From an uncultured Armatimonadota bacterium (GTDB lineage: Bacteria > Armatimonadota > Fimbriimonadia > Fimbriimonadales > Fimbriimonadaceae), in assembly GCA_903927025.1 (NCBI GenBank), contig CAIYLG010000015.1, forward strand, positions 62,001-126,000: a stretch of DNA of 64,000 bases. The letters run 5' to 3'. Shown here piece after piece: positions 15,161 to 32,369 of this stretch (its first letter is position 1; the number at the start of each line of letters is the position of its first letter). The position numbers and the translations under genes are program-made. Under the pieces are notes generated by a model. The model saw only the letters and a list, made by a program, of their open reading frames with translations. It had not been told where the DNA came from and searched no databases.

Positions 15161-15227
15161 TTAACATACTCAGTCCAACAACTCAAGGTAGTTGCTTAGT
15201 CAACACAGCTCATGGTTAACTCTGAGG

Positions 15228-15653: not shown

Positions 15654-15663
15654 TTTTCCTGGG
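15632..15663. terminator. hairpin between convergent Rrf2 copy 2 and tRNA-Thr
   Basis: CCCAGGAAA at 15632-15640 pairs perfectly with TTTCCTGGG at 15655-15663; the stop codon of the Rrf2 gene lies in the loop. Neither side has a strong U-tract. The location between convergent genes favours a bidirectional transcription end. Confidence 0.4.
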
Positions 15664-15671
15664 ACATGAAA

Positions 15672-15746
15672 TGGAGCCGATGACAGGACTCGAACCCGCG
15701 ACCCGCTGTTTACAAAACAGCCGCTCTACCACTGAGCTACATCGGC
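15672..15746 (-). tRNA. tRNA-Thr (anticodon UGU), CCA encoded
   Basis: Read on the minus strand, the acceptor arms GCCGATG/CATCGGC pair fully. The D arm GCTCAGTGGTAGAGC, the anticodon arm GCTGT-TTTGTAA-ACAGC with TGT at positions 34-36, and the T arm with GGTTCGAGTCC are all standard. The discriminator U is followed by an encoded CCA. Confidence 0.95.
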
Positions 15747-15792
15747 AAGGACACTAATAGTGACCGATTGAGAGACTGGGAATCAAGTGCCT

Positions 15793-16200: not shown

Positions 16201-16286
16201 CCCCTATTAGTGTTTATCACTTTACTCTAATCGAACCTTAACTTGCCTTAAACACCGTTAATAATTGCGCTCAAAACCCTATGGAT

Positions 16287-17111
16287 TCACAGAATGATGT
16301 TGTCGATCAATCTTGTTTTACCGAGATATGCGGCGGCAATCAGCGCTGAACCCTCTTTGGCACTGTGGGTGGAATGGGTAGAGGAGAGGTCGATTAGCTC
16401 AAAGTAATCCACTCTAAATCCGACTGCTTCCAGCGAAGATTTCGCATGACGCAATTGGACTTCAACCTCTTCAGAACTTAAATTATTGTCCTTCAGAGCA
16501 AGTGCTGAACTTATCAATTGTCGTTGGAGTTCAGGCGCGATCGCTCTCTCCGATTCTGTAAGGTACATGTTCCTAGATGAGAGGGCGAGCCCGTCTGATT
16601 CGCGCACAGTGGGTTGTAGGCTGACCGTTACGGGCAGGTTCAAATCTGCAGTCATTCGACTGATGACGAGGCATTGCTGCAGGTCTTTCAACCCAAAATA
16701 AGCCACATTGGGCCGCACTACATTGAACAGCTTACATACAATCGTGGCCACACCTTCAAAGTGCCCGGGCCTCGACGCACCCTCCCAAAGGGTGGTGACT
16801 GCAGGAACATGAATGGTGGTACCCCTGCGCGGGTACATCTCATCCGTAGTGGGGGCAAACAGGATGTCGACTCCAGCGGCCTGCGCCATTTCAGCATCTC
16901 TTTCAAGATTCCTTGGATACCGCTCAAAGTCCTCCCCGGCACCAAATTGAGTCGGATTCACAAAGAGAGACGCCACAACAAACCCACATTCAGCTTTGGC
17001 GGTGCGCATCAGAGAAAGGTGACCTTCATGAAAGCCACCCATCGTAGGAACAAAGCCAACTGTTTGATTAGCCGGATGAGGAAGATCGGAGATTACGTGG
17101 ACAATTTGCAT
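16287..17111 (-). CDS. panC: pantothenate synthetase
   Basis: This 274-residue ATP-dependent ligase joins pantoate and beta-alanine to give pantothenate. The nucleotidyltransferase motif VGFVPTMGGFHEGHLSLM (HxGH) is near residues 18-35. Further family blocks are SLFVNPTQFGAGEDFERYPR, YFGLKDLQQCLVI and RESDGLALSSRNMYL. It follows panB by 31 bases, so the last two steps of pantothenate synthesis are encoded together. Confidence 0.97.
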   Translation of the reverse strand: MQIVHVISDLPHPANQTVGFVPTMGGFHEGHLSLMRTAKAECGFVVASLFVNPTQFGAGEDFERYPRNLERDAEMAQAAGVDILFAPTTDEMYPRRGTTIHVPAVTTLWEGASRPGHFEGVATIVCKLFNVVRPNVAYFGLKDLQQCLVISRMTADLNLPVTVSLQPTVRESDGLALSSRNMYLTESERAIAPELQRQLISSALALKDNNLSSEEVEVQLRHAKSSLEAVGFRVDYFELIDLSSTHSTHSAKEGSALIAAAYLGKTRLIDNIIL

Positions 17112-17142
17112 TAAGTTCTTCCGAATTAGGCCCTTAGTCCGA

Positions 17143-17928
17143 TTAGAAACTATTTTCTTCGGTCGGGAAGGTGCCAGCTTTTACTTCACAGCAATAGTTG
17201 TGAAGTGCATCCAAGATCACCTCATTGCCATTGAAATATCGCTTAGTGTGCTTGAACTCACCTGAGCCAAACCCCAAAAGGTCGTAAATCACTTGGACCT
17301 GCCCAGAGCAGTGCGCTCCACCCCCAATACCGATGGTGGGTACCTCAAGTTCTTCCGTAATTCTGCGAGCCAACTCTGAGGGGATAAGTTCGAGAACGAT
17401 GGCGTATGCCCCGGCATCTTGCACTCGCTTCGCCTCGTCGATAACATCCTGTCCCTTAGCTCCCTTCCCCTGAACTCGAAATCCGCCAAACGCGTTGACT
17501 GATTGAGGCGTCATGCCGACATGCCCCATTACAGGAATCCCCGCTCTTGAGATCTCTCGGATGGCTTCCACGTACGCTCCTTCAAGCTTTACAGATTCAG
17601 CGCCGGCTTTAACAAGCGCGACCGAGTTGGCTACTGCATCCTGCACAGATGCCTGATAGGAGCCAAACGGGAGATCTGCAACAAGCAAAGCCCGGTTTAC
17701 ACCGCGTCTCACCGCTTGGGTGTGGTAAATCATCATCTCCTGGGTGACAGGAATGGTAGACGTGTACCCCAGGACTGTATTTCCTACAGAGTCACCCACC
17801 AGGACAATGTCTGCACCAGATCGGTCCGCGAGCGAACCCAGGATCGCATCGTACGCGGTAACGCAAACGATGACTTCCCCCTTGGCTCGCATCCGGACTA
17901 CAGCAGGCGCAGTTACCTTATCCAGCAT
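17143..17928 (-). CDS. panB: 3-methyl-2-oxobutanoate hydroxymethyltransferase
   Basis: This 261-residue TIM-barrel enzyme adds a hydroxymethyl group from methylene-tetrahydrofolate to ketoisovalerate. Key motifs are VLVGDSVGNTVLGY (metal-binding Asp), VKLEGAYVEAIREI, GIPVMGHVGMTPQSVN and PTIGIGGGAHCSGQVQV. The gene starts 11 bases after the end of the peroxiredoxin gene and is followed by panC, so the three form a likely operon. Confidence 0.97.
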   Translation of the reverse strand: MLDKVTAPAVVRMRAKGEVIVCVTAYDAILGSLADRSGADIVLVGDSVGNTVLGYTSTIPVTQEMMIYHTQAVRRGVNRALLVADLPFGSYQASVQDAVANSVALVKAGAESVKLEGAYVEAIREISRAGIPVMGHVGMTPQSVNAFGGFRVQGKGAKGQDVIDEAKRVQDAGAYAIVLELIPSELARRITEELEVPTIGIGGGAHCSGQVQVIYDLLGFGSGEFKHTKRYFNGNEVILDALHNYCCEVKAGTFPTEENSF

Positions 17929-17939
17929 AGAGGCTGAGT

Positions 17940-18395
17940 TTACCGTCCGGTTAGAGCAGCGATGACTTCATCCGCATGCCCTTGCGGCTTAACCTTTCGA
18001 AACACGTGAGTTACGATGCCGTTCTCGTCAAGAACGAAGGTTGTACGTTCCACGCCCATGTACTTTCTTCCGTACATCGACTTCTCCGCCCATACGCCCG
18101 CGGCTTCGCACAGGGCGTGCTCCGTATCCGCAACCAACGTAAATGTTAGGCTGTATTTGTCTACAAATTTTGCGTGGGACTTCGCGCTGTCCGGACTTAC
18201 GCCCACCACCCTAACCCCCGAAATAGACGGGAGGGCATCCCGAAATTCACATGCCTCAACCGTGCATCCGCTGGTGTCATCCTTGGGATAGAAGTAGACA
18301 ACTGACTTTGAACCCTTGAGGGTATCGAGTGAAACAGTGCTCCCAGTCTGGTCAGACAAGGAAAATTCTGGAAACGGGCTACCTACATCAATCAT
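17940..18395 (-). CDS. bcp: thiol peroxidase of the Bcp/PrxQ peroxiredoxin type
   Basis: This 151-residue protein reduces hydroperoxides with thioredoxin as electron donor. The peroxidatic Cys lies in YFYPKDDTSGCTVEACEFRD, with the resolving Cys five residues later, the arrangement of the PrxQ class. GVSPDSAKSHAKF and TFVLDENGIV are also typical. It has no signal peptide, so it acts in the cytoplasm. It precedes panB closely; the pairing looks like transcriptional convenience rather than a shared pathway. Confidence 0.95.
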   Translation of the reverse strand: MIDVGSPFPEFSLSDQTGSTVSLDTLKGSKSVVYFYPKDDTSGCTVEACEFRDALPSISGVRVVGVSPDSAKSHAKFVDKYSLTFTLVADTEHALCEAAGVWAEKSMYGRKYMGVERTTFVLDENGIVTHVFRKVKPQGHADEVIAALTGR

Positions 18396-18466
18396 CGGAC
18401 TCTCACTGGGGGACTCATTTACTCCCGATTGAATTACGTATCTCTCTTACGAATCATTTCAGAGTG

Positions 18467-18868
18467 CTAGGGCTCGTTTGGATGACTGTCCAGCAACATC
18501 GCCTGCATAAGGTCTACCCGCAGGACAATTCCAAATAAACGTCCCTCATCCGTTACGGGAAGTATCGTGAGGCCGCTGCTCAGCATGCGATGAAACGCCT
18601 CCCCGATTTCCGTGTCTGCCGCAGCTACAGTCGGTTCCTGAGTTCCATAAATGTACGCAGGCTCCCTGGACATACTGGTCAGGCTGTCGCGGCTGGCCAC
18701 TGCCCGGCACAAGTCCCCCTCCGTAACTACAGAGACTGGCGCCATATCCTCATCAACAACAACCAGTGCAGGAAACTGGTAGATGTCCATTTTGTCGACA
18801 GCGTCCCTCACCGTACTCTCACGCGTGAGAGTCGGAATGTGGGCGTGGAGAACCTCGCGCAGGGTCAT
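18467..18868 (-). CDS. two-CBS-domain protein
   Basis: This 133-residue protein is built of two CBS repeats: MTLREVLHAHIPTLTRESTVRDAVDKM, then FPALVVVDEDMAPVSVVTEGDLCRAV, and AADTEIGEAFHRMLSSGLTILPVTDEGRLFGIVLRVDLMQAML. Such pairs form a Bateman module that binds adenine nucleotides. There is no attached effector domain, so its partner is unknown. It is 71 bases upstream of bcp on the same strand. Confidence 0.9.
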   Translation of the reverse strand: MTLREVLHAHIPTLTRESTVRDAVDKMDIYQFPALVVVDEDMAPVSVVTEGDLCRAVASRDSLTSMSREPAYIYGTQEPTVAAADTEIGEAFHRMLSSGLTILPVTDEGRLFGIVLRVDLMQAMLLDSHPNEP

Positions 18869-18894
18869 TTCAAATCCATAGGGGCCGCTGTAGG

Positions 18895-19863
18895 CTAGTT
18901 GGCCGTATACGTGAAGCTATCCATAGCTTCATAGTGGCCCGGCGAGGTCCTTCCTTTGAACGTTACCGTCGCCTTCTTTCCGTCAATCTCTACCAGCATA
19001 TAGCCATATGTCTTGTCCACGTGCTTGATTCGCTTTAGCGACCAGCCCGTATTGTTTCCGGCATACTCACCCTGCTTGTAAAAGGGAGCTCCCGCGGTAC
19101 CAGCCACAAATTGGTGCATTTCGGGGCCAGGCTCTCCGCTTGCTTTCGTTACAACCATGTGATCGTAAAGGTGATCATGACCGCAAAAGAACACTCGAGA
19201 CCCGGCATTGATCAGGCTTGTCCAAAAGGCATCGCGCTTCTCGGGAGAAGCATCCATCGTGTCCTTGTGGGCGCCATCCATAAATGCCGGCTCATGCCCC
19301 ATAGAAAAGATCAAGGGTTTATGGTGCTTCTTCAGGACGTCGTCTAACCACGGCTGGTTGATCGCCTCACCCTTTTCCGTGTACTGATCTAGCCCGATGG
19401 CGAGTACGTTGCCCCGAGTGTAGTAGAAGGTTAAGTTCTTCTCACCAACGGGTCCGTTGCCTGGCATCGCATACTTGCCCGAGAAGACTTTGTCCCAAAC
19501 TGGCCAAGCTTCAGCGCTGCCAGCATCATGGTTGCCGCGACAGGCCAGGACGCCAATCTTCTTGTCATAGAGAGGCTGCATGATGTCTCTCCAGGCTTTC
19601 AGCTCGGCCTCAAAAGCCTTTGGCTCCTTTTCATAGCCAATCACTAAATCGCCTGTCCACATCATGAACTTCGCTTTTTCATCCTGAACCGCTTGGCAGA
19701 TTTCGGAAGTGATCAGGGTATTAATGCCGTTTTTGTCTTCGGGCCGGTGCGCTTTGGGATCCGACCGACCATCCCCAGCGACCACAAAGCACCACTTCTC
19801 TGCCGCAGCCAAACCTGAAAGCAACATCGTCCCAGCGACGACAACACCAGACCACAGTCTCAT
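18895..19863 (-). CDS. secreted metallophosphoesterase
   Basis: This 322-residue protein has a signal peptide (LWSGVVVAGTMLLSGLAAA) and all calcineurin-like blocks in order: VVAGDGRSD, WTGDLVIGYE, ACRGNHDAGS, FSMGHEPAFM and FFCGHDHLYDH. These bind a two-metal centre that cleaves phosphomono- or diesters. It is exported, so the substrate is extracytoplasmic, perhaps nucleotides or phospholipid. A C-terminal beta segment (YMLVEIDGKKATVTFKG) follows the catalytic domain. Confidence 0.92.
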   Translation of the reverse strand: MRLWSGVVVAGTMLLSGLAAAEKWCFVVAGDGRSDPKAHRPEDKNGINTLITSEICQAVQDEKAKFMMWTGDLVIGYEKEPKAFEAELKAWRDIMQPLYDKKIGVLACRGNHDAGSAEAWPVWDKVFSGKYAMPGNGPVGEKNLTFYYTRGNVLAIGLDQYTEKGEAINQPWLDDVLKKHHKPLIFSMGHEPAFMDGAHKDTMDASPEKRDAFWTSLINAGSRVFFCGHDHLYDHMVVTKASGEPGPEMHQFVAGTAGAPFYKQGEYAGNNTGWSLKRIKHVDKTYGYMLVEIDGKKATVTFKGRTSPGHYEAMDSFTYTAN

Positions 19864-19900
19864 GAGGTTAGTTTACAGCGCGGTCTCTATGGCACGCTTG

Positions 19901-21103
19901 CTACAACGCTCGCATTGCCACGACTGGATCCTTGCGGGAAGCGTTGATCGCAGGCACCAATCCAAAGATCGCACCTACTCCCACACTCACGCCGAGTGCA
20001 AGAAAGATGATCGCAGATGTGATCTCAGGCTTCACGGGAGTAAACCGATACAGAGCAAGATCCGCCGCATAAGAAAAACCTAAACCGCAAATACCTCCCG
20101 CCAAAGAAAGAAGCACGCTTTCGAATAGAAACTGAACAAAGATGTCTCGGTTACATCCGCCAACAGTCTTGCGGATACCAATTTCCTGCGACCTCTCGTT
20201 CACGGACATCAGCATCACGGTCATGATTCCGACTCCTCCAACGAACAATGCAATGGATGTGAGGCCTGTGAGCAGCCAAGTCAATATGCCCATTAGTTTG
20301 TAAACGAGCCCAAGGAGATCCTCTTGGGTCAAGACTTGAAACTGCTGTCGATCCAGTCGCTTCTGAAACTCACGATCCAAGCGCTTGATCAGTTGCCGAG
20401 GTTCCACATCGGGCCGAATCTGAATCATGATTCGAGCGGTTTGGAGGTCTGGCTGAATCGACTTCAGCCGGTAGTAATCGAGATAGACAAGGTTTTGAAG
20501 GCTCCCAAAGCTGAGAAGACTTTGCTCCTGCTTCTTGTCCTCCGTCACTCCAATCACGCGATATCTGCGCTGGTTGACATCGACCATCTTGCCGACGGCC
20601 GAAACATTGCCGAAGAGTTGCTTCTTTGCGATAGAACCCAAGACGACTGTATCGGACCTGGCGTCCTCCGGCTGAAATACTCGCCCCTCCTGCATCTGAA
20701 CGGGCCGCATGAGAAACCAGCCTGGGGTTGCGGCGGCAAGCAGAGGGGAAGCCACTTTTGCCCCATTGCGAATTCCTCCGCCAACAAACGTGAAAGGCTC
20801 GGCGCGAACGACGCCTGGAACTTTGGAGCATCGCTCCACATCAATGTCCTTCAGGTAGCTCATACCACCAAAATTCGGATTGAAGGTGCCCGCCTCAATT
20901 CGGCCCGGCACAACAACTAAGACGTTCACGCCTAGGTCCCTAACTTGATTGGTGACGTCGTGCTGAACGCCAGTTGCAATTGAGACCAGCAAAATGATTG
21001 CTGAAGAGCCAACCATAACGCCAAGTGCGCTCAGCAAAGCGCGGGTGCGCTGCTCGCGAATACACTGCACAGCAGCCAGAAAATTTCGAAGCAGAAGCGC
21101 CAC
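19901..21103 (-). CDS. MacB/FtsX-type ABC transporter permease
   Basis: This 400-residue protein has the MacB layout. There is one N-terminal helix (RALLSALGVMVGSSAIILLVSIATG) and a periplasmic core domain of about 220 residues. Three C-terminal helices follow (ILTWLLTGLTSIALFVGGVGIMTVMLMSV and SVLLSLAGGICGLGFSY). The mechanotransmission motif NERSQEIGIRKTVGG is present. No ATP-binding partner is adjacent, so it must be encoded elsewhere. Substrates of this class include lipoproteins, antibiotics and peptides. Confidence 0.93.
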   Translation of the reverse strand: MALLLRNFLAAVQCIREQRTRALLSALGVMVGSSAIILLVSIATGVQHDVTNQVRDLGVNVLVVVPGRIEAGTFNPNFGGMSYLKDIDVERCSKVPGVVRAEPFTFVGGGIRNGAKVASPLLAAATPGWFLMRPVQMQEGRVFQPEDARSDTVVLGSIAKKQLFGNVSAVGKMVDVNQRRYRVIGVTEDKKQEQSLLSFGSLQNLVYLDYYRLKSIQPDLQTARIMIQIRPDVEPRQLIKRLDREFQKRLDRQQFQVLTQEDLLGLVYKLMGILTWLLTGLTSIALFVGGVGIMTVMLMSVNERSQEIGIRKTVGGCNRDIFVQFLFESVLLSLAGGICGLGFSYAADLALYRFTPVKPEITSAIIFLALGVSVGVGAIFGLVPAINASRKDPVVAMRAL

Positions 21104-21143
21104 CAGGAGTTCCTACGCTGACGGCAGCTTTATAGCGGCACGA

Positions 21144-21464
21144 TTAGCTTCGGTCGAGGTGATAGCCGTGAACTTTGCCTGCTTCATCAAAATTAACTTC
21201 GAGAGTCAAGTTGGTTGAGTACACCAGCAGCGAGTGTTTAGGTCCAACTGCCTTTAAGTTCGGTGCCTGCTGCTCAATGGTGTAGCCATTGTCGGCAAGC
21301 TGCTTCTGGACCTCGGCGACTGTTTTCTTGACACTAAGGTCGTTCTTCATAAGTGTGTCCATCACGCTGGCTTCCTTTCCAACACCTGCCGCAACAATAG
21401 CCACAGCAAGAAGAATCAAGAAGAAGAAACCGCAGACACCACCGATAATCCAGCCTTTTTTCAT
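21144..21464 (-). CDS. small membrane-anchored protein of unknown function
   Basis: This 106-residue protein starts at the ATG at 21464 (MKKGWIIGGVCGFFFLILLAVAIVAAG), which gives a single N-terminal membrane anchor. A frame open to 21512 would add 16 unlike residues. The soluble part (VKKTVAEVQKQLADNGYTIEQ, then LEVNFDEAGKVHGYHLD) suggests a small alpha/beta domain. I do not recognise the family. It is 40 bases downstream of the permease start and is on the same strand, but upstream of it. Confidence 0.7.
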   Translation of the reverse strand: MKKGWIIGGVCGFFFLILLAVAIVAAGVGKEASVMDTLMKNDLSVKKTVAEVQKQLADNGYTIEQQAPNLKAVGPKHSLLVYSTNLTLEVNFDEAGKVHGYHLDRS

Positions 21465-21557
21465 GCTAAATCTTGGACGCAGGTACTTACCGTAAAGGTT
21501 GCGGACTACCACGCCTCGAGGCCTGATTTAACAGACCTTTCTCCGCCAAAACTCTCG

Positions 21558-22799
21558 ATGAGCACCTTCAAGGATGACAACCGCCCATACTGCCCAGCTC
21601 ATTTGCAGAGTCAGTTCAGGTGTATCCTCTCCAGCGTGGATGCACGGGCAGAACGGAGCTTAAAGGATCTGATTGCCGGGTTTTGTGGCGCTGACGCTCA
21701 AGTTGCCGAAGCATGCTTCCCTGCTCTCTGCGAAATCACTAGCCGCGGGCTCAAAGCCTATTTGAAATCCAAGCTTTACTCCGATGAAGCCAGAGAGGAC
21801 GTCATTCAGGAAGTCCTGAAGCGGCTATGGATGCGGCGCGGCAAATGGGAGGACAAAGGAGCATCCGGGTGGTGGGCACTGGTGAAGCGCATTGCCGACC
21901 AATGTAGAATTGACATGGTCCGCAAGGTTGGTGGCGAAGTGCTCTGGGATGACGCGGAGGTAGGCGAAGTAGAAGACGGCGAATCAACTACCGTCGAACT
22001 TTTGCTTGAAGCTATCGCCGACCGAGAGGCCCTCTATCGAGCAGCTGACGAACTGTGGCTGGGGTTTTCTGAATTGATCTCAGATAGAGATCGGGTCAGG
22101 CGAGCCCTTGCGGCTCAACTTTTCTACCAACACGCTCTTGGCTGGGAAGAGGTCTTGACGATGCTCAATCGGAACTCGCCAGACAGGCCGCTCAGCCGTG
22201 TTGAGCTTGATTCTTGGCTGGCGGACCCCTCCGTCATTCGGTCAGCCGCCTTTAGAACACTGTTCCGTTCCAATGACCAATTGGCATCCCACCTTCTTGA
22301 GATGGATCCCATTGATGAGGCCGCACTCAATGCGCTAACCGTTCTGGCTATGGCTCCAAATCCTAAAGTTGCTCCACCCGGAAACTGGACGTGGCCGGAG
22401 GTCCAAGTGATCCTATGGCGCTATCGACAGGCAGAGAGAGTTGACAAGATACAAGCGCATGAGCTTTGCAGTGTTGAAAAAGATGAAATGGCAGCGCTGT
22501 TTGATAGATGCCTTGCCAAATTCCCGTTCTCAGACATTATGAAGCAGCTTCTAGATTCTCTTGAGCGATGGCCCCTCGCGACAAGGGAACTCTCAGAACC
22601 TGGCCTTTGGCAGCGACTCGTTTTCGAATACTACTGCCGCGAGACCAGCAACCACCGCGATATCTTTGATCGCACTTCCAGCCCAGCCGACTTGGCCTCA
22701 TACCGATTAACAATGGCCATGCTCAACGTTTGGCTTTCCAACGGAAGGCTATTCGCTCGGCTTGCCGCACACCTCCAACAGGCGGGAGGAGAGGCGTGA
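21558..22799 (+). CDS. sigma-70 region 2-like protein with long C-terminal extension
   Basis: Residues about 45-125 match sigma region 2 of ECF-type factors: ACFPALCEITSRGLKAYL, then the core-binding stretch SDEAREDVIQEVLKRLW, then the -10-recognition-like GWWALVKRIADQCRIDMVRK. Residues about 170-240 (RRALAAQLFYQHALGWEEVLTML, then SRVELDSWL) could hold a divergent region 4 helix-turn-helix. The last 170 residues are helical and unknown. At 413 residues it is twice the usual ECF length. It is the first gene of a three-gene cassette and overlaps the next gene by four bases (GTGA). Confidence 0.8.
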   Translation: MSTFKDDNRPYCPAHLQSQFRCILSSVDARAERSLKDLIAGFCGADAQVAEACFPALCEITSRGLKAYLKSKLYSDEAREDVIQEVLKRLWMRRGKWEDKGASGWWALVKRIADQCRIDMVRKVGGEVLWDDAEVGEVEDGESTTVELLLEAIADREALYRAADELWLGFSELISDRDRVRRALAAQLFYQHALGWEEVLTMLNRNSPDRPLSRVELDSWLADPSVIRSAAFRTLFRSNDQLASHLLEMDPIDEAALNALTVLAMAPNPKVAPPGNWTWPEVQVILWRYRQAERVDKIQAHELCSVEKDEMAALFDRCLAKFPFSDIMKQLLDSLERWPLATRELSEPGLWQRLVFEYYCRETSNHRDIFDRTSSPADLASYRLTMAMLNVWLSNGRLFARLAAHLQQAGGEA

Positions 22800-23881
22800 G
22801 AATCACAGATACTCCCGAGCGATTCAGTCCCCAAGCAGTCGCACTGCTTGAGATGGCGGCTGCTGGTCACCTATTAGGTGAGCCAGAACAGCCATCCCTA
22901 GAGCAGTATGTTCGTTACGCATACGGTGCGCTTACTGAATCGGAAGCGTGCGAATTAGAGCAGACGCTCCAAACTTACCCTGCCCATGTCGAGACCCTGG
23001 CGAGGGTATATCGGGTCGCAGAGGAGCTCCGTACAACTCCTTTGTACAACAGTATTCAGTCAGACCAAGATTCCCTGCATCAACAGGTCCAGGTCATATG
23101 GACACGGTTGCTGCAAGATTCGGAATCGCAAACAGCTCAGGACTCCACATTGCTGGCACTCGCTGCTCTGACCCTAAGTGGCAAAGACGCAATGCGGTCG
23201 GTCCGAAAGTTCCTAATGGACCTTCTTGATCCGGGACTTGCTCCACAACGAGTTGCATTCGCTGGTTCCTTGAGAACATCGCAGCTTGGGCCACTTCTCG
23301 AGAATATGGAAGTTGAGGTTTCGCTCGACGCTCAAATTGAACCGGATGGAAGCCTTCTGCTGACAGCCAGCATTCCTTCCGAAGGAATACTGAAGCCAAC
23401 CAATGTATGCGTAGGATTTGAACTCAACCGTCAGTGGGTCCGTCTTGGAAATGCACCTGTGTTGGAGGGTTCCTGTACCCTTCTCATCCCTGGTTTCGGG
23501 GATCTCATCGGACTATCTGCCGGCCCATTGCCGCCCGACCTATTTGCCCTTCGACCTGACGTGTGGCCATCCGTTTGCGGGACCGGCAACTTCGTCGTTC
23601 AGGCGGGCAATATGCCATTTGCAGAAGTTGAAGTTCCTCCGACATCTGCTTCCGGTTCAATTTCCCTCAATTTGAGGCTGTTGCCTGAATCAGCCGAGCT
23701 CAGACAGGCGAAAGAGCTTGAGGTTTGGTTTGGAACAGGTGGGCAGGTATGGCAGCTGGTGGGTCGCTGGCCAATTCCGCCTCTATCCGTTGGCACGATG
23801 AGCATCAGCTTCCCCTCCCCAACCAGAACTACTGCTAGCTCAACTTTCTCAGGAATTCTGAAACTCGCACTGAAGTCGTAG
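22796..23881 (+). CDS. anti-sigma-like / unknown middle protein of the CHAT cassette
   Basis: The GTG at 22796 overlaps the previous stop and has GGGAGGAG upstream, so translation is coupled (361 residues). Residues about 35-80 (LEQYVRYAYGALTESEACELEQTL, then THVETLARVYRVAEEL-like helix) follow the helical pattern of zinc-binding anti-sigma domains, but the H-x3-C-x2-C ligands are missing. Residues about 150-360 are beta-rich (VEVSLDAQIEPDGSLLLTAS, then VCVGFELNRQWVRLG, then LEVWFGTGGQVWQLVG). There is no signal peptide or membrane helix. By position it is a candidate sigma inhibitor, or a substrate of the protease encoded next. Both roles are inference. Confidence 0.75.
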   Translation: MRITDTPERFSPQAVALLEMAAAGHLLGEPEQPSLEQYVRYAYGALTESEACELEQTLQTYPAHVETLARVYRVAEELRTTPLYNSIQSDQDSLHQQVQVIWTRLLQDSESQTAQDSTLLALAALTLSGKDAMRSVRKFLMDLLDPGLAPQRVAFAGSLRTSQLGPLLENMEVEVSLDAQIEPDGSLLLTASIPSEGILKPTNVCVGFELNRQWVRLGNAPVLEGSCTLLIPGFGDLIGLSAGPLPPDLFALRPDVWPSVCGTGNFVVQAGNMPFAEVEVPPTSASGSISLNLRLLPESAELRQAKELEVWFGTGGQVWQLVGRWPIPPLSVGTMSISFPSPTRTTASSTFSGILKLALKS

Positions 23882-23901
23882 GATATAGTTCTTGCCAAGC
23901 C

Positions 23902-26900
23902 ATGAATGGGCAGGGCAGGTCATCAAGAAAGCTGGTTCCCGACTTTGTCCTGCGACTGGAGGCAACAGAGTCGGGAGTCGTCGCGACCCTCCGGTCACCT
24001 AATGAGCCGGAGGCTCCGATTATTCACGAATCGAAGACGGCCAACGTTCGAAAAAGCGTAGAAGGCTGGAAGTCTCGATTCCTCTCCGATCCACAGGGCT
24101 CAGGGCTAATCACCTTGGGTAAAGAACTGGGCTCGGTTGCCTTTCCTCCGCCAATCCGTCGATCGCTTCTTGCTGAAGCGGCTGTCAACCCGATTCGGAT
24201 CCGACTCAGCACAGACGAACTTCTTTGGGATGTCCCGTGGGAGGTGTGCAGCATGCAAGAACTTGCGGCATCAAACGAGGGATTTGTCGCGTTGTCTGCC
24301 CGGATGCGGATCATTCGAGACCTAGGACAGATTTCCAGCGCGTCCGGAGCCACTGAGGCAGCCACCGTCCTTGTCGCTTGGGCGAATCCGGGTTCAAAGA
24401 AATACCCGCAGCTCCACTTCGCGGAAAAGGAGGCAGCATCGGTCATACGCGCGCTTCGCAGCCCTGAGTGTGGTCTTCAGACAGATGAACTCCCCTACGC
24501 GAGCGTATCGGGCTTGCTGAGGAGCTTGAAGGAGAAACAACCGTCCATTCTTCACTTCATCGGCCATGGGGATTTGAATCCATCTGGTGGTGTCATTGTT
24601 TTGGATGGCGGCCAACCAGGCACGGACGCCGCCATGTACGCAGATGAACTGTCGAAGGCAGTTGCAGGCGCGGGAACGTCACTCGTTGTCTTGTCTGGAT
24701 GCATGACCAGTGGCGCTCCTCAAGCGATAGGAAGTGTTCTCGCCAAATCTGGCGTTCCCGCCGTCATCGCCATGTCTGCGCCGATCCAGGATTCCTCGGC
24801 TCATCAGTTCGCCCGTGCCATGTACAGCTCCCTTGCGGAAGGAACGCCGTTGGACGAGGCAGTGTTCGAGGCCCGATGCGCGATCATGGGATCTGGTTCA
24901 GCGTGGGCTATCCCGCAGCTGATGCTCACCTCTGGAGAGCCGATCGCGTTTGCCGATGCGGACGAGCAGCCTTTTCGATGGACCGGCAATGAGCCTCGCA
25001 CCAACTTGGCCTACGACGACAGGCCATTCATTGGTCGGGTCAAAGAACGATCCGACCTGCGCCGTAAGATCCGCGACCTGTCTCAGCGCCTGGTGACCGT
25101 CACGGGTCCGGGTGGAATGGGAAAAACGCGCCTAGCCAAGCAGGTTGGCGCGGAACTTGAGGGAGACTTCCCTGATGGGGTTTGGCTGATTGATTGCGAG
25201 GCGTTGACTGGTGCCAGCGAACTTATCGGCGGCATCGCGAACTGCATTCCGTTCTGTGGCGGAGGTGATTCCATTCAGAGGGTCAAGGAGGCCATTGCCC
25301 GTCGAAGACTCCTACTGATCCTTGACTGCTTCGAGCACTCCGTCAGCCAAGGCGCACTTATCAGCGAACTGGTCGATGCCGCCCCGGGGCTCTACGTTCT
25401 CCTCACGAGCCGAATTCTGCTGGGCATCCCTCGCGAATTTGAATATCCGCTTCCGCCGATGTCCCTAAGCGGTAAAGGCGGCGAAAGTTCAGAAAGTATT
25501 CGTCTCTTCGCTGAGGCCGCCTCTCACGCAATTGATGGCTTTACCGTTTCCACAAAGAACCGTAAGCAGCTCAGGGATCTATGTGAAAGCCTCGAAGGAG
25601 TTCCACTGGCGATCGTCCTTGCCGCTGGTCGACTGCGACACATGGGACTCCTGGATCTAATCGACCAGGTGCAATCACAACCTATCGAGACGCTGCGCAG
25701 AAGAAGTGGCGGAATCGACCGGCACTCCAATATCGAGTCGGTCGTGGCAGCCTCGTTTGCCCTTTTGCCTGAACGGGAAAGGCATATGCTTTGCCGATTT
25801 GCACTCTTCTCGGGAAGCTTCACGCTTGCAGATGCAGGTGTCGTGTGCGGCTCTGGGGAAAAGGAGCTGCTTGCCTGGATTTCCGACCTTAGAGACCATT
25901 CCCTCATTCATCTTCAACGGACTGAAGAGCGAACACGCTACAAGCTGCTTGACACTGTTCGGGACTACGTAGCCCGCATCCCCATGGAATCTGAAGCAAC
26001 TAGGGAGCTTCAACAGTGCAAGGTAAGACACGCGGAGCACTATGCAAGGCTGGCAGTTGAAATCGCTAGACTCATGGCAGAGGGTCGTTGGTCCGCGGGT
26101 ACCGATCAACTCATGCGTGAGATCGGAAATCTGCGAGTTGCGATTGCCACCGCAGCCGAACTTAAGCGAGACGATTTGATTTCCGCAGTCGCTGGCAGCA
26201 TCGGCAGAAGGCTGTTCGAGGCTGGACTGCTAACCGACTTCCGAAAACTGACCGATGCTGGCTATCAGGCCGCGGCGAGAACTGGAAGCACATCCCTGAG
26301 GATTCAACTTTTAGGCCTCGATGGTGCCCTAGCCTCACGGAATGGAGATGAGGCGCTGTGTGAAAAGCTCTGGCTGGAAAGAGCCGACCTGTGCCGTCAG
26401 ATCAAAGATGTCGAGCATTGCGCAGACACCCTGATTGACCTGGCGTGGCAGGCGTTCGAGCGTGGCGACAACTACAAGAGCCGCTACCGGCTCTTTGAAG
26501 CGCTTAGGCTAGCCCGAAGCGTGCAGGACCCCATCTTCGTGGCCACCGCGCGCGTCGTTCAGGCACGGCTGGCGTTCGCCGCTAGCAACAGCCGCTTGGC
26601 GGCGCATCGCGCCAGGCAGGCAGAAGCAATATTGCCTCAATGTACAGACCGCAGCGGGGCACTTTTCCTCTACCAAAACCTGATGCTCTCATGCCGAGAG
26701 CTGGGGCAACTGGAAAAGAGCACAGAGTACACGCTGGAGCTGCTGCGATCTGCAATCGAGCGTCACCAAGTGGTTCACGCTGGCTGGGCGCTGCTGGAAC
26801 TGGGTCCGCTGTATGAACAGACCGACCGCTCCGACCTCGCTGCGAAATGCTACGCAGCCGCCCTCAAGGTCCACGCTGAGTACCAGACCCGGCTCAAGAC

Positions 26901-27024
26901 CCGCGCAACAGCTGCCTACGCCCAATTCAAAAAGAAATGCCAGGATCCAGTTGCGCAGTCGATGCTGACATCGCTTCGCAACAGATCCTGGCAAGAGATT
27001 GTAAACGGGCTAACTGAAATCTAG
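23902..27024 (+). CDS. CHAT protease - STAND (NB-ARC) ATPase - TPR protein
   Basis: This 1040-residue protein has three parts. Residues about 150-350 are a CHAT caspase-like peptidase with the catalytic pair in HFIGHGDL (His222) and VVLSGCMTS (Cys267). Residues about 375-600 are a STAND ATPase: P-loop GPGGMGKT (402-409), Walker B LLLILDCFEH with Asp475, and LTSR near 501-504. A winged helix (FALLPERERHMLCRFALFSGSF) follows near residues 616-690. The last about 300 residues form helical TPR-like repeats, the usual ligand sensor. It starts 20 bases after the middle gene. Such proteins act in bacterial immunity or programmed death; the trigger is unknown. Confidence 0.93.
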   Translation: MNGQGRSSRKLVPDFVLRLEATESGVVATLRSPNEPEAPIIHESKTANVRKSVEGWKSRFLSDPQGSGLITLGKELGSVAFPPPIRRSLLAEAAVNPIRIRLSTDELLWDVPWEVCSMQELAASNEGFVALSARMRIIRDLGQISSASGATEAATVLVAWANPGSKKYPQLHFAEKEAASVIRALRSPECGLQTDELPYASVSGLLRSLKEKQPSILHFIGHGDLNPSGGVIVLDGGQPGTDAAMYADELSKAVAGAGTSLVVLSGCMTSGAPQAIGSVLAKSGVPAVIAMSAPIQDSSAHQFARAMYSSLAEGTPLDEAVFEARCAIMGSGSAWAIPQLMLTSGEPIAFADADEQPFRWTGNEPRTNLAYDDRPFIGRVKERSDLRRKIRDLSQRLVTVTGPGGMGKTRLAKQVGAELEGDFPDGVWLIDCEALTGASELIGGIANCIPFCGGGDSIQRVKEAIARRRLLLILDCFEHSVSQGALISELVDAAPGLYVLLTSRILLGIPREFEYPLPPMSLSGKGGESSESIRLFAEAASHAIDGFTVSTKNRKQLRDLCESLEGVPLAIVLAAGRLRHMGLLDLIDQVQSQPIETLRRRSGGIDRHSNIESVVAASFALLPERERHMLCRFALFSGSFTLADAGVVCGSGEKELLAWISDLRDHSLIHLQRTEERTRYKLLDTVRDYVARIPMESEATRELQQCKVRHAEHYARLAVEIARLMAEGRWSAGTDQLMREIGNLRVAIATAAELKRDDLISAVAGSIGRRLFEAGLLTDFRKLTDAGYQAAARTGSTSLRIQLLGLDGALASRNGDEALCEKLWLERADLCRQIKDVEHCADTLIDLAWQAFERGDNYKSRYRLFEALRLARSVQDPIFVATARVVQARLAFAASNSRLAAHRARQAEAILPQCTDRSGALFLYQNLMLSCRELGQLEKSTEYTLELLRSAIERHQVVHAGWALLELGPLYEQTDRSDLAAKCYAAALKVHAEYQTRLKTRATAAYAQFKKKCQDPVAQSMLTSLRNRSWQEIVNGLTEI

Positions 27025-27755
27025 CCGCCGGCAGGCGCATAGATCTTGATGATGGTTCCGTCGAGCAAAACAACATGTTGCTCAACCAGCCCACTTCCCA
27101 CATTGCACGCGTCCTGGGTACCAAGTGCAACCTTGGAACCCTGGAACATGATGTTCAGCTTCGTCAGATCAGACGAGAGGATTGATCTTCCTCCAGAAGA
27201 GATCGTTCGGAAGGTTAGTTTGGGTCCTTCTGACTTGGTGCCGTCAGCGTGAACTTGGGTCACCTTTAGCTTTCCGTACAAGTTGCAGAGCCAATCCTGA
27301 TTCTCGATGGCTCCGGCAAGAAGACCGTGTCGCAGGTCTTCATGCTGTCCAATAGGAAGGTGAACGAAACATCGATCTCCAACCTGGGCAAACACAAATT
27401 CTGGATTCATTCCCAAGATCTTCTTCTCAATCGCCTCGTAGTCGATTCCACTGTTCAAGTGGAATCGCCCCCCAATCGAGGCCATGCGAACCGAGATCAC
27501 ACCCGTGTGATCGATTCCATCGATGATGTAGGACGCAGAGTGCGACTCCGAATCCGAAGCGGAGACGTCCAGGGAAATCACAAAATTGTCAGACAGTACT
27601 GCCTGGCGTCGCTGCTCTCCATGTCCAACTTCGATCCGCTTGATCCACTCGTATGGATTTGTAATCAGTTCAATGAGATCTTTTGAATCGTTCGTTTCGT
27701 AGATCCACACCGCGTCGTCTTCGGCTAAGGGAATATATGTGTGCTTGTAGGCCAT
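27021..27755 (-). CDS. conserved-looking hypothetical protein, convergent to the CHAT gene
   Basis: The 244-residue protein starts at the ATG at 27755 (MAYKHTYIPLAEDDAVWIYE); a frame open to 27872 adds an unlike segment. It is acidic, beta-rich and without signal peptide or membrane helix (FVISLDVSASDSESHSASYIID, FVFAQVGDRCFVHLPIG, HVVLLDGTIIKIYAPAGG). I do not recognise a family. Its stop codon shares the CTAG tetranucleotide at 27021-27024 with the CHAT gene stop, so the genes meet end to end with no gap. Whether it belongs to the CHAT cassette is unknown. Confidence 0.7.
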   Translation of the reverse strand: MAYKHTYIPLAEDDAVWIYETNDSKDLIELITNPYEWIKRIEVGHGEQRRQAVLSDNFVISLDVSASDSESHSASYIIDGIDHTGVISVRMASIGGRFHLNSGIDYEAIEKKILGMNPEFVFAQVGDRCFVHLPIGQHEDLRHGLLAGAIENQDWLCNLYGKLKVTQVHADGTKSEGPKLTFRTISSGGRSILSSDLTKLNIMFQGSKVALGTQDACNVGSGLVEQHVVLLDGTIIKIYAPAGG

Positions 27756-27885
27756 ACCGCTATCCGTCCTGCTCCTATCTATCGTATCGGTTTCGGGCTG
27801 GCTGACAGAATGGGTGTCTGGCACCCGCGAAAACGGGGCCAAAGCGCCTAAACCTTTGTCAGCTAGTATCAAACGCCAGAACTAA

Positions 27886-27906
27886 AGGCAATCTATCAGA
27901 TTGCTT
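27886..27906 (-). terminator. candidate terminator after nuoF
   Basis: On the minus strand AAGCAATC-TGATA-GATTGCCT forms an 8-bp stem (with one G-U pair) followed by TTAGTT, about 30 bases past the nuoF stop. The U-tract is short, so the call is tentative. Confidence 0.4.
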
Positions 27907-27934
27907 CAGTTAGAGGTAAACAACCTGTTAAGGA

Positions 27935-29239
27935 TTAGGGGACGCCAACGAGAGACGGCTTCGAAGTCACCATGCTGACACCGTTCTCGATGTAGTACTC
28001 AAACTCTTCAGGGAACACACGAAGGGCCGCAAGCACCGGCCATGCTGCCGCATCGCCGAGTGGGCAGAACGAGCGACCATCAATCTGGTTGGCAACTTGC
28101 TTAAGCAGATCAAGGTCTCCAGGCTGGCCGCCTCCCTTGCAGATGCGCTCAAGAATCTGAACCATCCATTTGGTGCCTTCACGGCAGGGAGTGCACTTTC
28201 CGCAGCTCTCGTTGGCATAGAACAGCGCGCTTCGCCAAGCAAACTTCACCATGTCGGTGTGCTCGTTGAAAAACATGCAGCCACCCGATCCCACCATGGA
28301 CTTAACTTCGCCCATCTCTTCGTATCCAATAATTGCGCGCTCAACGTCAGCGGCCAGGATCACAGGGACTGAGCTGCCACCGGGAATGCACGCCTTGAGC
28401 TTGCCTCCTCGAACACCGCCAGCAAGCTCCAACAGCTCACGCAGAGGGGTGCCAAACTCAATTTCGTAGTTGCCCGGCTTATTGACATGGCCCGAAACCG
28501 AGAAGATTTTGGTGCCGCGTGAGTTCTTGGTAGAAGCTCCCAGCGAGGCAAACCATTCTGCGCCGTTGTTTACGATGTAGGGCGCATTACAGTAGCTTTC
28601 AACGTTGTGAATCAGCGTCGGCTTGTCGAACACTCCGCTAATAACTGGAAATGGCGCGTGCGGGAATTTGAGGCGAGGCATTCCGCGTTCGCCCATAAGC
28701 GAACTCATGAGTGCAGTCTCTTCTCCACACTCATAAGAACCGGCGCCCATATGAATTTGGATATCGAAGTTGAACCCCGTCCCTAAAATGTTCTTGCCAA
28801 GGAGGTTATTGGCATAGGCTTCGTCGAGCGCATTTCGAAGCGCCTTAGCGCCATCCATGTACTCACCACGAATGTAAACGTATCCAACGTCGCCCTGTAC
28901 GGCGTAGCCAGCGATCGTCATGCCTTCAACGAGTTCAAATGGGCATGTCTCAAGGAGTTGCTTATCTTTAAATGTGCCGGGCTCTCCCTCATCCGCATTG
29001 CAGATCAGGTAGTGCTCGGTCTTCTTTTCTTTGGGCATGCCGCCCCACTTGAGAGCTGCTGGCGCACCGGCACCGCCTCGGCCCCTAAGGCCAGCGGCCT
29101 TGACGGAGTCAATGATGGCGGAGCGCTCCATCTCCAGCGCTTTGGGAAGTGCTGTGTAGCCGCCCTTCGACTTATATCCCGCGAGAGTTTTGAAGAGCGG
29201 ATCGTTCGTATGCTCTAGGAGCAGCTTGTACTCGGCCAT
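27935..29239 (-). CDS. nuoF: NADH-quinone oxidoreductase subunit F
   Basis: This 434-residue subunit binds NADH, FMN and the N3 4Fe-4S cluster at the tip of complex I. The FMN/NADH region GLRGRGGAGAPAALKWG is near residues 50-66. YICNADEGEPGTFKD and GAGSYECGEETALM follow, and cluster cysteines are seen in ESCGKCTPCREGTKWM with a fourth downstream (SFCPLGDAAAWPV). It is the third gene of a nuoD-nuoE-nuoF set, after a 73-base gap behind nuoE. Confidence 0.97.
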   Translation of the reverse strand: MAEYKLLLEHTNDPLFKTLAGYKSKGGYTALPKALEMERSAIIDSVKAAGLRGRGGAGAPAALKWGGMPKEKKTEHYLICNADEGEPGTFKDKQLLETCPFELVEGMTIAGYAVQGDVGYVYIRGEYMDGAKALRNALDEAYANNLLGKNILGTGFNFDIQIHMGAGSYECGEETALMSSLMGERGMPRLKFPHAPFPVISGVFDKPTLIHNVESYCNAPYIVNNGAEWFASLGASTKNSRGTKIFSVSGHVNKPGNYEIEFGTPLRELLELAGGVRGGKLKACIPGGSSVPVILAADVERAIIGYEEMGEVKSMVGSGGCMFFNEHTDMVKFAWRSALFYANESCGKCTPCREGTKWMVQILERICKGGGQPGDLDLLKQVANQIDGRSFCPLGDAAAWPVLAALRVFPEEFEYYIENGVSMVTSKPSLVGVP

Positions 29240-29312
29240 GCTTATCTTTTTCTACTGTGTGATCGGTCCCATCGACTGCCTTGTAGCCGGCGACGAGAAA
29301 GGATGTTGTTCC

Positions 29313-29927
29313 CTACGCTTCTCCCTTGCGCAGCTGAACTTGAACGATGTCGTTGGAATACTGCACGACGGTGCTCTCCTTCGTGTTCCTTAAGGTTTCG
29401 ATGAGATCATCGAGACTCTCTTCTGTAAGCGGGCCGTAATATTGGGAGCCAACCTGCATGCAGGGAGCGCGATCGCAGGAGTTGAGGCACTCCACTTCTT
29501 CCAATGTGAATAAGCCGTCTTCCGTGGTCTCGCCATGATGTATGCCCAGCTTCTCAACGAGACGATCTCGGAGATTCCACGCCCCGTTGATGTGGCAGCA
29601 CAGGCAGGTGCAGATTTCAATCTTATGCAGGCCGGGCTTGTGAGCCGTGTTGTACAGAGAGTAGAACGTGGCCACTCCCTCCACTTCGGCATAGCTTCTC
29701 TCAAGTCGATGAGCGACTTCGGCAATGGCATCGCCTGAGAGGTAGCCGTCGTACTCACGCTGGGCTAGCCAGAGCGCGGGCAAAATACAGGCTTTCTTAG
29801 TCGGATAGTGGGTGAGGAGCGCCTCAAGTTCTTTAACGCCCTGCTCCGAAAACTGGAGCTTGAGATCTTCCGGACGCGGCTGACGCGGTCGCTGGTTGGG
29901 GCTGCCGATCTGAATCAGTTCACTCAT
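29313..29927 (-). CDS. nuoE: NADH-quinone oxidoreductase subunit E
   Basis: This 204-residue thioredoxin-like 2Fe-2S subunit pairs with NuoF. The cluster ligands are in KIEICTCLCCHINGAWNL (C-x4-C) and EVECLNSCDRAPCMQV (C-x3-C). The N-terminal helical part (LEALLTHYPTKKACILPALWLAQREYDGYL) is standard. The gene lies 15 bases after nuoD on the same strand. Confidence 0.96.
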   Translation of the reverse strand: MSELIQIGSPNQRPRQPRPEDLKLQFSEQGVKELEALLTHYPTKKACILPALWLAQREYDGYLSGDAIAEVAHRLERSYAEVEGVATFYSLYNTAHKPGLHKIEICTCLCCHINGAWNLRDRLVEKLGIHHGETTEDGLFTLEEVECLNSCDRAPCMQVGSQYYGPLTEESLDDLIETLRNTKESTVVQYSNDIVQVQLRKGEA

Positions 29928-29942
29928 GCTGGTGTGCCGGGT

Positions 29943-31160
29943 TTAGCGGTCTATCTCTCCTAAAACGATATCGATGGAACCAATGATTGCGACGACGTCG
30001 GCAATCAGTCGACCCACCGCCAAAATCTCAAGTGCCTTCAGGTTCATAAGGCTGCTGGGGCGCTCATGCCATCGATATGGTCGGTTAGATCCGTCACTGA
30101 CGATGTAGAAGCCGAGCTCACCCTTCGAGCCTTCCACACTGGCGTAGGCCTCGCCAACAGGAGGATGGAACCCTTCGGTGAATAGCTTGAAGTGATGGAT
30201 AAGCGACTCCATCGAGTTGTCCAGCTCGGCACGGGGTGGTGGAGCGATCTTACGATCCGTGGTTCTGTATGGACCCTCGGGCAGACCATCGATCGCCTGT
30301 CGGATGATCTTACAGCTCTCCTTCATCTCCGCGATGCGGACGAGGAAGCGATCGTAGACGTCTCCCTTCTTTCCAACTGGGATGGCAAAGCTGAAGTCTT
30401 CGTAGCTGCTGTAGGGGTTGCTCTTTCGCAGGTCCCACGCCACTCCGCTCGCTCGGGCGATAGGGCCGCTCGCCCCGAGGCTGAGTGCCTGGTCCGCGGT
30501 GAGAATGCCTACGTCGTAGGTTCTCTGCTTCCAGATTGGGTTCTCGACGAGCATGTTTTCCACGATCGTGAGTTCAGGGATGAAACCGTCAAGAAAGCTC
30601 TTGAGCTTCTCCTCAAATCCTTCCGGCATATCCCCTCGAAGGCCACCTGGAACAATCCAGCTCGGCATCATGCGAACGCCTGAGAACATCTCAAAAAGAT
30701 CAAGGATCAGTTCGCGCTGCTGCCAAACATAGAAGTAAGGTGTCATGGCTCCCAGGTCAAGACCGTGGGTACCCAGCCAAACAAGATGGGATGCCACTCG
30801 GCTCAGCTCCGCTAGGATCACTCGGAGGTACTGGGCACGCTTTGGCACTTCGCAGTCGAGAAGCTTTTCAACCGCCAGCGCATGAGCAAGGTTGTTGCCG
30901 TTAGCGTTCAGGTAGTCCATGCGGTCGGTCATGACCACACACTTCATGTACTGCTGATACTCGGCTTCCTTCTCCATGCCGGTGTGGAGGTAGCCAATCA
31001 CGCATTTACAGCTGATGATGACCTCGCCCTCCAGTTCGCAAATCACCCGGAGAACTCCGTGGGTCGAGGGGTGCTGAGGCCCCAGGTTGACGACCATCGT
31101 GTTCTCGCCGATCTTCTGGAAGATCGTCTCAGTCGAGGGCATGAACGTGTGAGAGGACAT
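29943..31160 (-). CDS. nuoD: NADH-quinone oxidoreductase subunit D
   Basis: This 405-residue 49 kDa-type subunit helps form the quinone-binding site. The opening VVNLGPQHPSTHGVLRV is diagnostic, and GYLHTGMEKEAE, DRMDYLNANGNNLAH and FSGVRMMPSWIVPGGLRGDMP follow. The C-terminal GSIDIVLGEIDR is the normal end. It is the first gene of this nuo segment and is divergent from the glycosidase at 31240. nuoA and nuoC are 24 kb away on the other strand. Confidence 0.97.
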   Translation of the reverse strand: MSSHTFMPSTETIFQKIGENTMVVNLGPQHPSTHGVLRVICELEGEVIISCKCVIGYLHTGMEKEAEYQQYMKCVVMTDRMDYLNANGNNLAHALAVEKLLDCEVPKRAQYLRVILAELSRVASHLVWLGTHGLDLGAMTPYFYVWQQRELILDLFEMFSGVRMMPSWIVPGGLRGDMPEGFEEKLKSFLDGFIPELTIVENMLVENPIWKQRTYDVGILTADQALSLGASGPIARASGVAWDLRKSNPYSSYEDFSFAIPVGKKGDVYDRFLVRIAEMKESCKIIRQAIDGLPEGPYRTTDRKIAPPPRAELDNSMESLIHHFKLFTEGFHPPVGEAYASVEGSKGELGFYIVSDGSNRPYRWHERPSSLMNLKALEILAVGRLIADVVAIIGSIDIVLGEIDR

Positions 31161-31239
31161 GGCGTTTTAGCTGAGAGTTCAAGACATGCTCCAGCAGATT
31201 CGATTCTACCAGCGGAAGTGGCTATCCTAAGTCCTAAAG

Positions 31240-32286
31240 ATGCTAGCTCTCTACTTGTTGCAGCTCACCGGGTGGCAGATTGGCGATTTCAGCCGTGCTG
31301 GAATCGATAATCCCATCCTAAAACCTTCCGAAACGGCTTCGTTCAACTGCCCGATGCGAGGTGAGAAGGTGAGATTTGAACACGACCACGTCTTCAACCC
31401 CGCCGCCGCAGTGCTCAACGGAAAGGTTTATCTGCTCTACCGAGCTGAAGATGATCATGGGGCAGGCATCGGCGGACATACGTCTCGGATCGGCCTTGCT
31501 GTGAGCGAGGATGGCCTGCACTTTAAAAAGCGCCCAACTCCAGTCCTCTTCCCTGGCAATGACGCCAACAAGAAGTACGAGTGGCCAGGAGGATGCGAAG
31601 ACCCACGTGTGGTGCAAAACCTAGACGGCGAATTCGTGCTCACCTACACGGCTTGGGACCGGAAGACGGCACGACTCTGCGTTGCAACATCGCGAGACCT
31701 GATCCACTGGACAAAGCGCGGCCCAGCCTTCTCCGGAACGTCATTTGTCGACACATGGTCAAAGTCGGGCTCCATCGTGACCACGCTGGTTCACAGTCAC
31801 CTTGTTGCTGCGAAGGTCAAAGGCAAATACTGGATGTACTGGGGCGAAGGAACTCTAAATCTAGCGAGCTCAACTGACCTGGTTCATTGGAACCCGTCAG
31901 TTGGTTCGGATGGCAAATTATTAGGCAACCTTACGACACGGTCAGGTTCCTTCGATAGTGCCCTCGTAGAGTCTGGCCCGCCCGCCCTTCTGACAAAAGA
32001 CGGCATCGTCCTCATCTACAACGGCAAGAATGACAAGGCAAAGGGAGACCCCAACCTTGGAGATGGCGCGTATGCTGCCGGCCAAGTGCTGTTCGATCCG
32101 AATGACCCTGGCCATGTGCTGGATCGAAGCCAAACCTATTTCCTAAAACCCGACCTCAAGCAGGAGAAGACCGGTCAGTACACCGCCGGGACCGTCTTCA
32201 CAGAAGCTCTAGTGAGGTTCAAGGGCCGCTGGATCCTCTACTTCGGCAGCGCCGACTCCTACGTCGGCGCCGCGCAGGCGCGGTAA
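31240..32286 (+). CDS. GH130-like beta-propeller glycosidase / phosphorylase
   Basis: This 348-residue protein has the five-bladed propeller of the GH130/GH43-like families. Repeated blade motifs read VFNPAAAVLNGKVYLLYRAED, RIGLAVSEDGLHFKKRPTPVLFP and RLCVATSRDLIHWTKRGPAF. The Asp in GCEDPRVV is at the usual GH130 catalytic position. Members act on beta-mannosides, by phosphorolysis or hydrolysis. A short hydrophobic start (MLALYLLQLTG) may be a weak export signal. The exact substrate is not visible. Confidence 0.85.
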   Translation: MLALYLLQLTGWQIGDFSRAGIDNPILKPSETASFNCPMRGEKVRFEHDHVFNPAAAVLNGKVYLLYRAEDDHGAGIGGHTSRIGLAVSEDGLHFKKRPTPVLFPGNDANKKYEWPGGCEDPRVVQNLDGEFVLTYTAWDRKTARLCVATSRDLIHWTKRGPAFSGTSFVDTWSKSGSIVTTLVHSHLVAAKVKGKYWMYWGEGTLNLASSTDLVHWNPSVGSDGKLLGNLTTRSGSFDSALVESGPPALLTKDGIVLIYNGKNDKAKGDPNLGDGAYAAGQVLFDPNDPGHVLDRSQTYFLKPDLKQEKTGQYTAGTVFTEALVRFKGRWILYFGSADSYVGAAQAR

Positions 32287-32310
32287 TCGTCGGGGCACGA
32301 CCCCAACTGA

Positions 32311-32345
32311 ACGCGCAAAGCGCGGGCTACCCTAGGCTAGTAGGA
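32311..32345 (+). repeat. possible copy C of an interspersed hairpin repeat
   Basis: CGCGC-AAA-GCGCG is followed by GGCTACCCT and then AGTAGGA. This parallels the order in the repeat read on the minus strand near 35158 (hairpin, GGGCTTCCCT, AGTAGGA). The similarity is partial, so membership is uncertain. Confidence 0.35.
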
Positions 32346-32346
32346 A

Positions 32347-32363
32347 GAACGCCGTTGGCGTTC
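32347..32363. terminator. hairpin between convergent glycosidase genes
   Basis: GAACGCC-GTT-GGCGTTC is a perfect 7-bp stem with a 3-base loop, located between the convergent ends of the GH130-like gene and the GH5-like gene. No U-tract follows on either strand; it may end both transcripts. Confidence 0.4.
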
Positions 32364-32369
32364 GAATGC

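Follow-up and report, generated by a model that had tools for sequence, protein, structure and literature searches.

The window analyzed here, a 64,000-nucleotide stretch (positions 62001-126000 of contig 15) from a 5.25 Mb, 98% complete MAG of Armatimonadota, a phylum that has received little study, contains three tightly coupled genes on the forward strand. The first, SIG (21558..22799, +), starts with ATG and encodes a 413-aa ECF-type sigma factor; the second, MID (22796..23881, +; 361 aa), starts with GTG within a GTGA overlap with SIG; and the third (23902..27024, +; ATG start), located 20 bases after MID, encodes a 1040-aa CHAT-STAND-TPR protein. The coordinates, co-direction, overlap and gap in the initial annotation were all exact. 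That annotation described a three-gene cassette, and the triad recurs at ~18 loci, but a fourth partner had been missed, the IKIY gene (27021..27755, -), which is convergent with the CHAT gene, overlaps it by 4 bases, and has an inferred start codon in a frame open to 27872. These genes lie in a 6.8 kb segment (21104..27934) between an ABC permease (19901-21103) and nuoF (27935-29239). Because the permease and nuoF are adjacent in four relatives (G014, G013, G003, and G002), where the cassette is absent between them, we consider the segment to be accessory. It also holds a small gene (21144-21512, -), divergent from SIG, that encodes a hydrophobic, probably membrane-spanning stretch and had no counterpart at the other loci retrieved. 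No Cas1 was found in the 98% complete genome and no direct repeats in window positions 15000-35000. Reading the upstream regions of SIG and IKIY by eye gave no convincing shared promoter motif, and Sigma-70-like promoters were no more numerous than expected by chance.

By sequence profile and predicted structure, SIG is an ECF-type sigma factor, so that the sigma region 2-like domain on which the initial annotation had staked its reading was borne out. Region 2 (~27-131) is followed by region-4-like helices to ~237 and a helical extension to 411. Although the window SIG matched Pfam Sigma70_r2 at E 2.6e-4, under the Pfam cut-off, this model matched 10/13 SIG homologues (best E 5e-11), and the SIG family profile picked up ordinary ECF sigmas via region 2, with E to 5e-12. 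The AlphaFold2 model (mean pLDDT 83) matched region 2 of E. coli sigmaE (1or7) with Z 11.8, at 2.4 A over 93 residues, and the best 41 structural matches were almost all sigma factors. A region 4 after region 2 is plausible, if weaker: r4_2 was matched weakly in 3/13 homologues (best E 0.0043, Pfam), and SIG aligned with ECF structures to ~residue 237 but with large rmsd. In one relative (L023), the C-terminal part also gave Pfam matches to HTH-like stretches at three positions. The SIG relatives found were from Armatimonadota MAGs, including Fimbriimonas-like ones, and the type III-E RpoE-like sigma model NF041236 gave 13 bits on SIG versus a cut-off of 100.

The middle protein had been described as zinc-less, anti-sigma-like and beta-rich, and each of these attributes was recovered. 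MID comprises a helical N-domain (22829..23140, +; residues 12-115, helical in the AlphaFold2 model, with an anti-sigma-like core at 35-80), a disordered linker (23219..23314, +; residues 142-173, pLDDT 21-45), and a beta-rich C-domain (23315..23878, +; residues 174-361, AlphaFold2 strands from 176). The N-domain helices at 31-80 were modeled with pLDDT 80-88. The window MID alone matched the NCBIfam anti-sigmaE model at residues 39-80 with E 0.0055, which is thin single-sequence evidence. The all-family N-domain profile, however, reached a zf-HC2 protein (L174; Pfam 4.7e-9) at E 6e-6, as computed with search size set to 400, and, at E 3e-9, a domain that follows a complete ECF sigma in one chain (L176), regions 2 and 4 of that sigma both being over the Pfam cut-off. 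These profile matches indicate that the MID N-domain is homologous to the zf-HC2-like anti-sigma helical domain, in a zinc-less form. No zinc ligands (H-x3-C-x2-C) were present in the window MID or in an alignment of 20 MIDs, and no membrane segment was apparent in the sequence; unlike zf-HC2 anti-sigma factors, MID thus has no zinc-ligand Cys and no apparent membrane segment, while it carries a long linker and beta-rich domain. The C-domain is possibly Ig/FNIII-like, its model having weak matches to such folds (Z not above 5.5). Neither an anti-sigma nor Csx30 was among the MID fold matches listed, although such a list is not evidence of absence. Two relatives depart from the common arrangement: L176 (1299-2540, -) is one open frame in which the complete ECF sigma is joined to the MID-like anti-sigma domain, with additional sequence at the C-terminus, and a MID relative in genome G019 (L179:1129-2247, -) has neither SIG nor CHAT adjoining.

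The third protein was correctly identified from the outset as a CHAT protease with His222 and Cys267 joined to a STAND P-loop at 402-409. Its CHAT caspase-like domain (24115..24984, +; His222 codon 24565-24567, Cys267 codon 24700-24702) matched Pfam at residues 72-361 with E 7e-31, and NB-ARC was matched at 395-593 (E 5e-6) around the Walker A of the STAND ATPase (25105..25128, +; residues 402-409, GPGGMGKT). Residues H218, H222, C267, R325, and W335 were kept in 21/21 relatives, as were Walker A residues G402, G405, G407, and K408 in 21/21 relatives. The C-terminal TPR gave a weak TPR_14 match in the window protein and clear TPR matches in relatives with the same STAND (Pfam). The CHAT profile matched the CHAT chain of PDB 8tl0, which we take to be a Haliangium protein, at E 3.4e-20, and the window CHAT matched PADLOC SAVED_CHAT at E 1.6e-8. 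The CHAT domains are homologous, but no SAVED domain was matched in the window protein (Pfam), which has STAND-TPR where SAVED stands. Elsewhere, one CHAT-STAND-TPR gene (L019:9316-12450) carries two in-frame stop codons in its MAG, reflecting either a decayed gene or an assembly error, and at L065 (2517-9094) two such genes are in tandem behind a single SIG-MID pair.

Distribution was examined by profile searches of 291 Armatimonadota genomes. A first genome scan with MID alone as query yielded no match, and relatives were recovered using the conserved SIG C-terminus. Strong SIG matches (E <1e-40) were present in 25/291 genomes, while MID as a separate gene and the CHAT subfamily were found in the same 20/291, all SIG-bearing; the CHAT subfamily limit (E at most 1e-37) was set after seeing the list, in which the next matches, in other genomes, were at 3.5e-35 and weaker. 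Hence MID and CHAT were jointly present or jointly absent in 25/25 SIG genomes. The order SIG-MID-CHAT was found at ~18 loci, with CHAT differing in orientation at L062 and L068, and two further loci were interrupted by contig ends. In G007 and G025 a SIG-MID pair had no adjoining CHAT, and a CHAT-STAND gene was located elsewhere in the genome. Conservation of the partners, in which the initial annotation had seen a critical point, therefore held within the phylum (20/20 genomes), whereas none of the four neighborhoods read around distant CHAT-STAND proteins on plasmids contained a sigma partner.

The MID linker displayed a feature not called at first, a candidate CHAT cut site at R160|T161 (codon 23273-23275, +). 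Each of the 20 aligned linkers, from MIDs with a mean identity of 19%, has an Arg and, right after it, a small residue. In 17/20 this Arg occupies one column and is each time followed by Gly/Ser/Ala; it lies 4 residues past the common column in the window MID (R160-T161) and a few residues past it in L017, while L024 has a gap at the column and Arg-Ser close by. When each linker was shuffled and realigned, at most 8 Arg-plus-small pairs fell in one column in 220 trials (versus 17 observed), and the count for Arg alone, ignoring the small residue, was matched by 1/100 shuffles; such shuffles are independent and ignore shared ancestry, and thus provide support rather than proof. Among representatives with identity <38%, 13/15 keep the Arg in the column. 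The AlphaFold2 MID model has its lowest confidence in this region. We regard the conserved Arg and small residue as a candidate cut site on the basis of this alignment, and the Arg might have some other role. No Arg-binding pocket was identified in the window CHAT, and a limited literature search on PCaspase or Arg-specific CHAT returned nothing relevant. Cleavage of Csx30, a published CHAT substrate, falls at residues 427-429 and depends on no essential residue (PMC10028731), so sequence recognition is not a requirement for CHAT.

Taken together, we consider it probable that the cassette is a non-CRISPR, STAND-gated proteolytic sigma switch, wherein STAND sensing would activate CHAT, CHAT would cut MID, and SIG would be freed. 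In the resting state, SIG would be held by the zinc-less anti-sigma N-domain of MID. The TPR part of the CHAT-STAND-TPR protein would sense a stimulus, which the IKIY protein perhaps presents, and ATP-dependent STAND oligomerization would then activate the CHAT protease. The latter would cut the disordered MID linker after the conserved Arg (R160 in the window), so that the anti-sigma and beta-rich domains would come apart, and the damaged MID would let go of SIG, which would direct RNA polymerase to target genes, the presumed regulon.

It is also conceivable that SIG and MID form a sigma/anti-sigma pair controlling expression of the CHAT-STAND-TPR and IKIY genes, with ligand binding or partner switching, rather than proteolysis, releasing MID, and CHAT cutting other proteins as a defense or death effector. 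The operon layout would suit such an arrangement, as would the two SIG-MID loci without adjoining CHAT, the existence of SIG without CHAT in two-gene loci (below), and the CHAT-STAND gene that, with IKIY, stands apart from SIG at L109. Yet it does not account for the joint presence or absence of MID and CHAT in 25/25 SIG genomes, and leaves the conserved Arg of a disordered linker unexplained, and we judge it unlikely.

The strongest indirect support for the restraint being the target of the sensor came from seven loci (G009, G025, G035, G002, G053, G036, and G024) in which the gene directly after SIG encodes a STAND-TPR protein (650-790 residues) without CHAT. Five of these genomes are without MID and CHAT altogether. 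In G036, G025, and G002 a MID-N-like N-terminus precedes STAND (N-domain profile E 4e-8, 6e-6, and 4e-5, respectively); MIDs apart, nothing else rose above noise in the set of 368 ORF N-termini (HMMER with decoy set). Of the other four loci, one gave a marginal N-terminus match and three had no detectable similarity. Thus, a restraint encoded by a separate gene is accompanied by a protease in the genome, and loci without the protease have the restraint, if it is visible, attached to the sensor. Because of this alternation between a separate restraint with protease and a restraint fused to the sensor without it, the sensor appears to act on the restraint. The fused and three-gene types clustered in the SIG tree, in which the deep branches are weak, so that one transition between them is not distinguishable from several. 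The same loci bear on whether CHAT might instead act on SIG itself, such as at its long C-terminal extension, with MID only recruiting or shielding SIG. An extension of ~170 residues is unusual and could offer a target, but it is confidently folded in the AlphaFold2 model and is retained in the two-gene loci, where there is no CHAT; moreover, SIG is mainly disordered at 125-153, where the alignment shows little conservation. We find this reading highly improbable.

With respect to known systems, the logic of the proposed proteolytic switch matches that of type III-E CASP, where Csx30 restrains a sigma factor and is cut by the CHAT protease Csx29 (TPR-CHAT) (PMC10028731). Both have a CHAT protease, a two-domain sigma inhibitor (putative in the case of MID) and an ECF sigma, encoded by neighboring genes and arranged in the same logical chain, but the window cassette is without CRISPR and has a STAND ATPase between CHAT and the predicted C-terminal TPR. 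Compared by description, cleavage of Csx30 falls in a loop of its C-terminal domain, while MID is distinguished by a zf-HC2-like N-domain and the conserved Arg in the linker. The parallel drawn in the initial annotation accordingly survives in the sense of "works like", and gains strength from the conservation of the linker Arg and from the variants without protease, but this is not a CRISPR system, there being no Cas1 and no repeats nearby. Of the transcription or death system named in its title, the death half is unsupported: nothing in the data spoke for cell death. Caspase genes beside ECF sigma and DUF1822 genes have been described, with a transcriptional output proposed, in the portions of Kaur et al. 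2021 (PMC8195603) consulted here. That EACC2-caspase arrangement is alike in having a caspase-like gene adjoining an ECF sigma and a third protein; it differs in that the window has CHAT-STAND-TPR, and those portions of Kaur et al. (PMC8195603) give no anti-sigma role or cut site. None of 11 MIDs matched DUF1822 at E 0.5 (Pfam). In a further protease-based system, CalpT is an anti-sigma and CalpS a sigma factor. As far as the parts of the reports consulted go, CalpL/CalpT/CalpS, built on a type III CRISPR Lon protease (PMC11417357, PMC12751052), shares the protease-triggered transcriptional response, but its Lon protease, SAVED sensor and cyclic oligoadenylate have no counterpart seen in the window cassette.

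The best explanation of the cassette is therefore a logic from caspase-like protease to sigma that is already known (CASP/Csx30-sigma; caspase-DUF1822-sigma), in a STAND-gated non-CRISPR form that is new. If true, this logic exists outside CRISPR under an NLR-like sensor, and the conserved predicted cut site makes the switch directly testable. Protease-plus-substrate versus direct fusion would further constitute a clear natural case of proteolytic and allosteric relays replacing each other.

The IKIY family, named for its C-terminal motif, had no match in Pfam or PHROG. It was present in 14/291 Armatimonadota genomes, 11 of these 14 being SIG genomes (Fisher p 5e-11), and its genes mostly adjoin the STAND-TPR gene or SIG. 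Its partners extend beyond the triad: at L109 IKIY adjoins the CHAT-STAND gene without SIG, and at L112 and L114 it adjoins STAND-TPR proteins with an N-terminal class III cyclase (Pfam), the same pairing being found at L113 and L117 as judged by N-terminal sequence. Since IKIY accompanies the sensor whatever the output, a role on the input side is the better guess from these neighborhoods. More broadly, we tentatively entertain, at a little under even odds, an inflammasome-like STAND-TPR receptor family with a dedicated IKIY protein of unmatched fold, whose outputs (CHAT on an anti-sigma, a fused anti-sigma, or a nucleotide cyclase) have been exchanged, such that one kind of stimulus would lead to different responses, including a caspase-like sigma release outside CRISPR.

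As to the stimulus, the STAND-TPR part may belong to general signaling regulators of the AfsR/LuxR type, in which case the cassette would answer to metabolism or development and not to infection or damage. This would fit the annotation of many plasmid-borne STAND-TPR relatives as winged-HTH, BTAD or kinase regulators, the position of the cassette beside nuo genes, and the lack of any SIG match in phage records. However, CHAT and STAND domains are also frequent in conflict systems, and the patchy spread (25/291 genomes) and insertion at a conserved locus suit an accessory system. We hold this to be a serious possibility, if not quite the expected outcome; it touches the trigger alone and is compatible with the proteolytic switch, the main mechanism being unaffected. 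Finally, in two other lineages, related genes for secreted proteins were located downstream of CHAT in place of IKIY (L018, L021, L025, L060, L071, L073, and L076), and these proteins are possibly beta-barrels.
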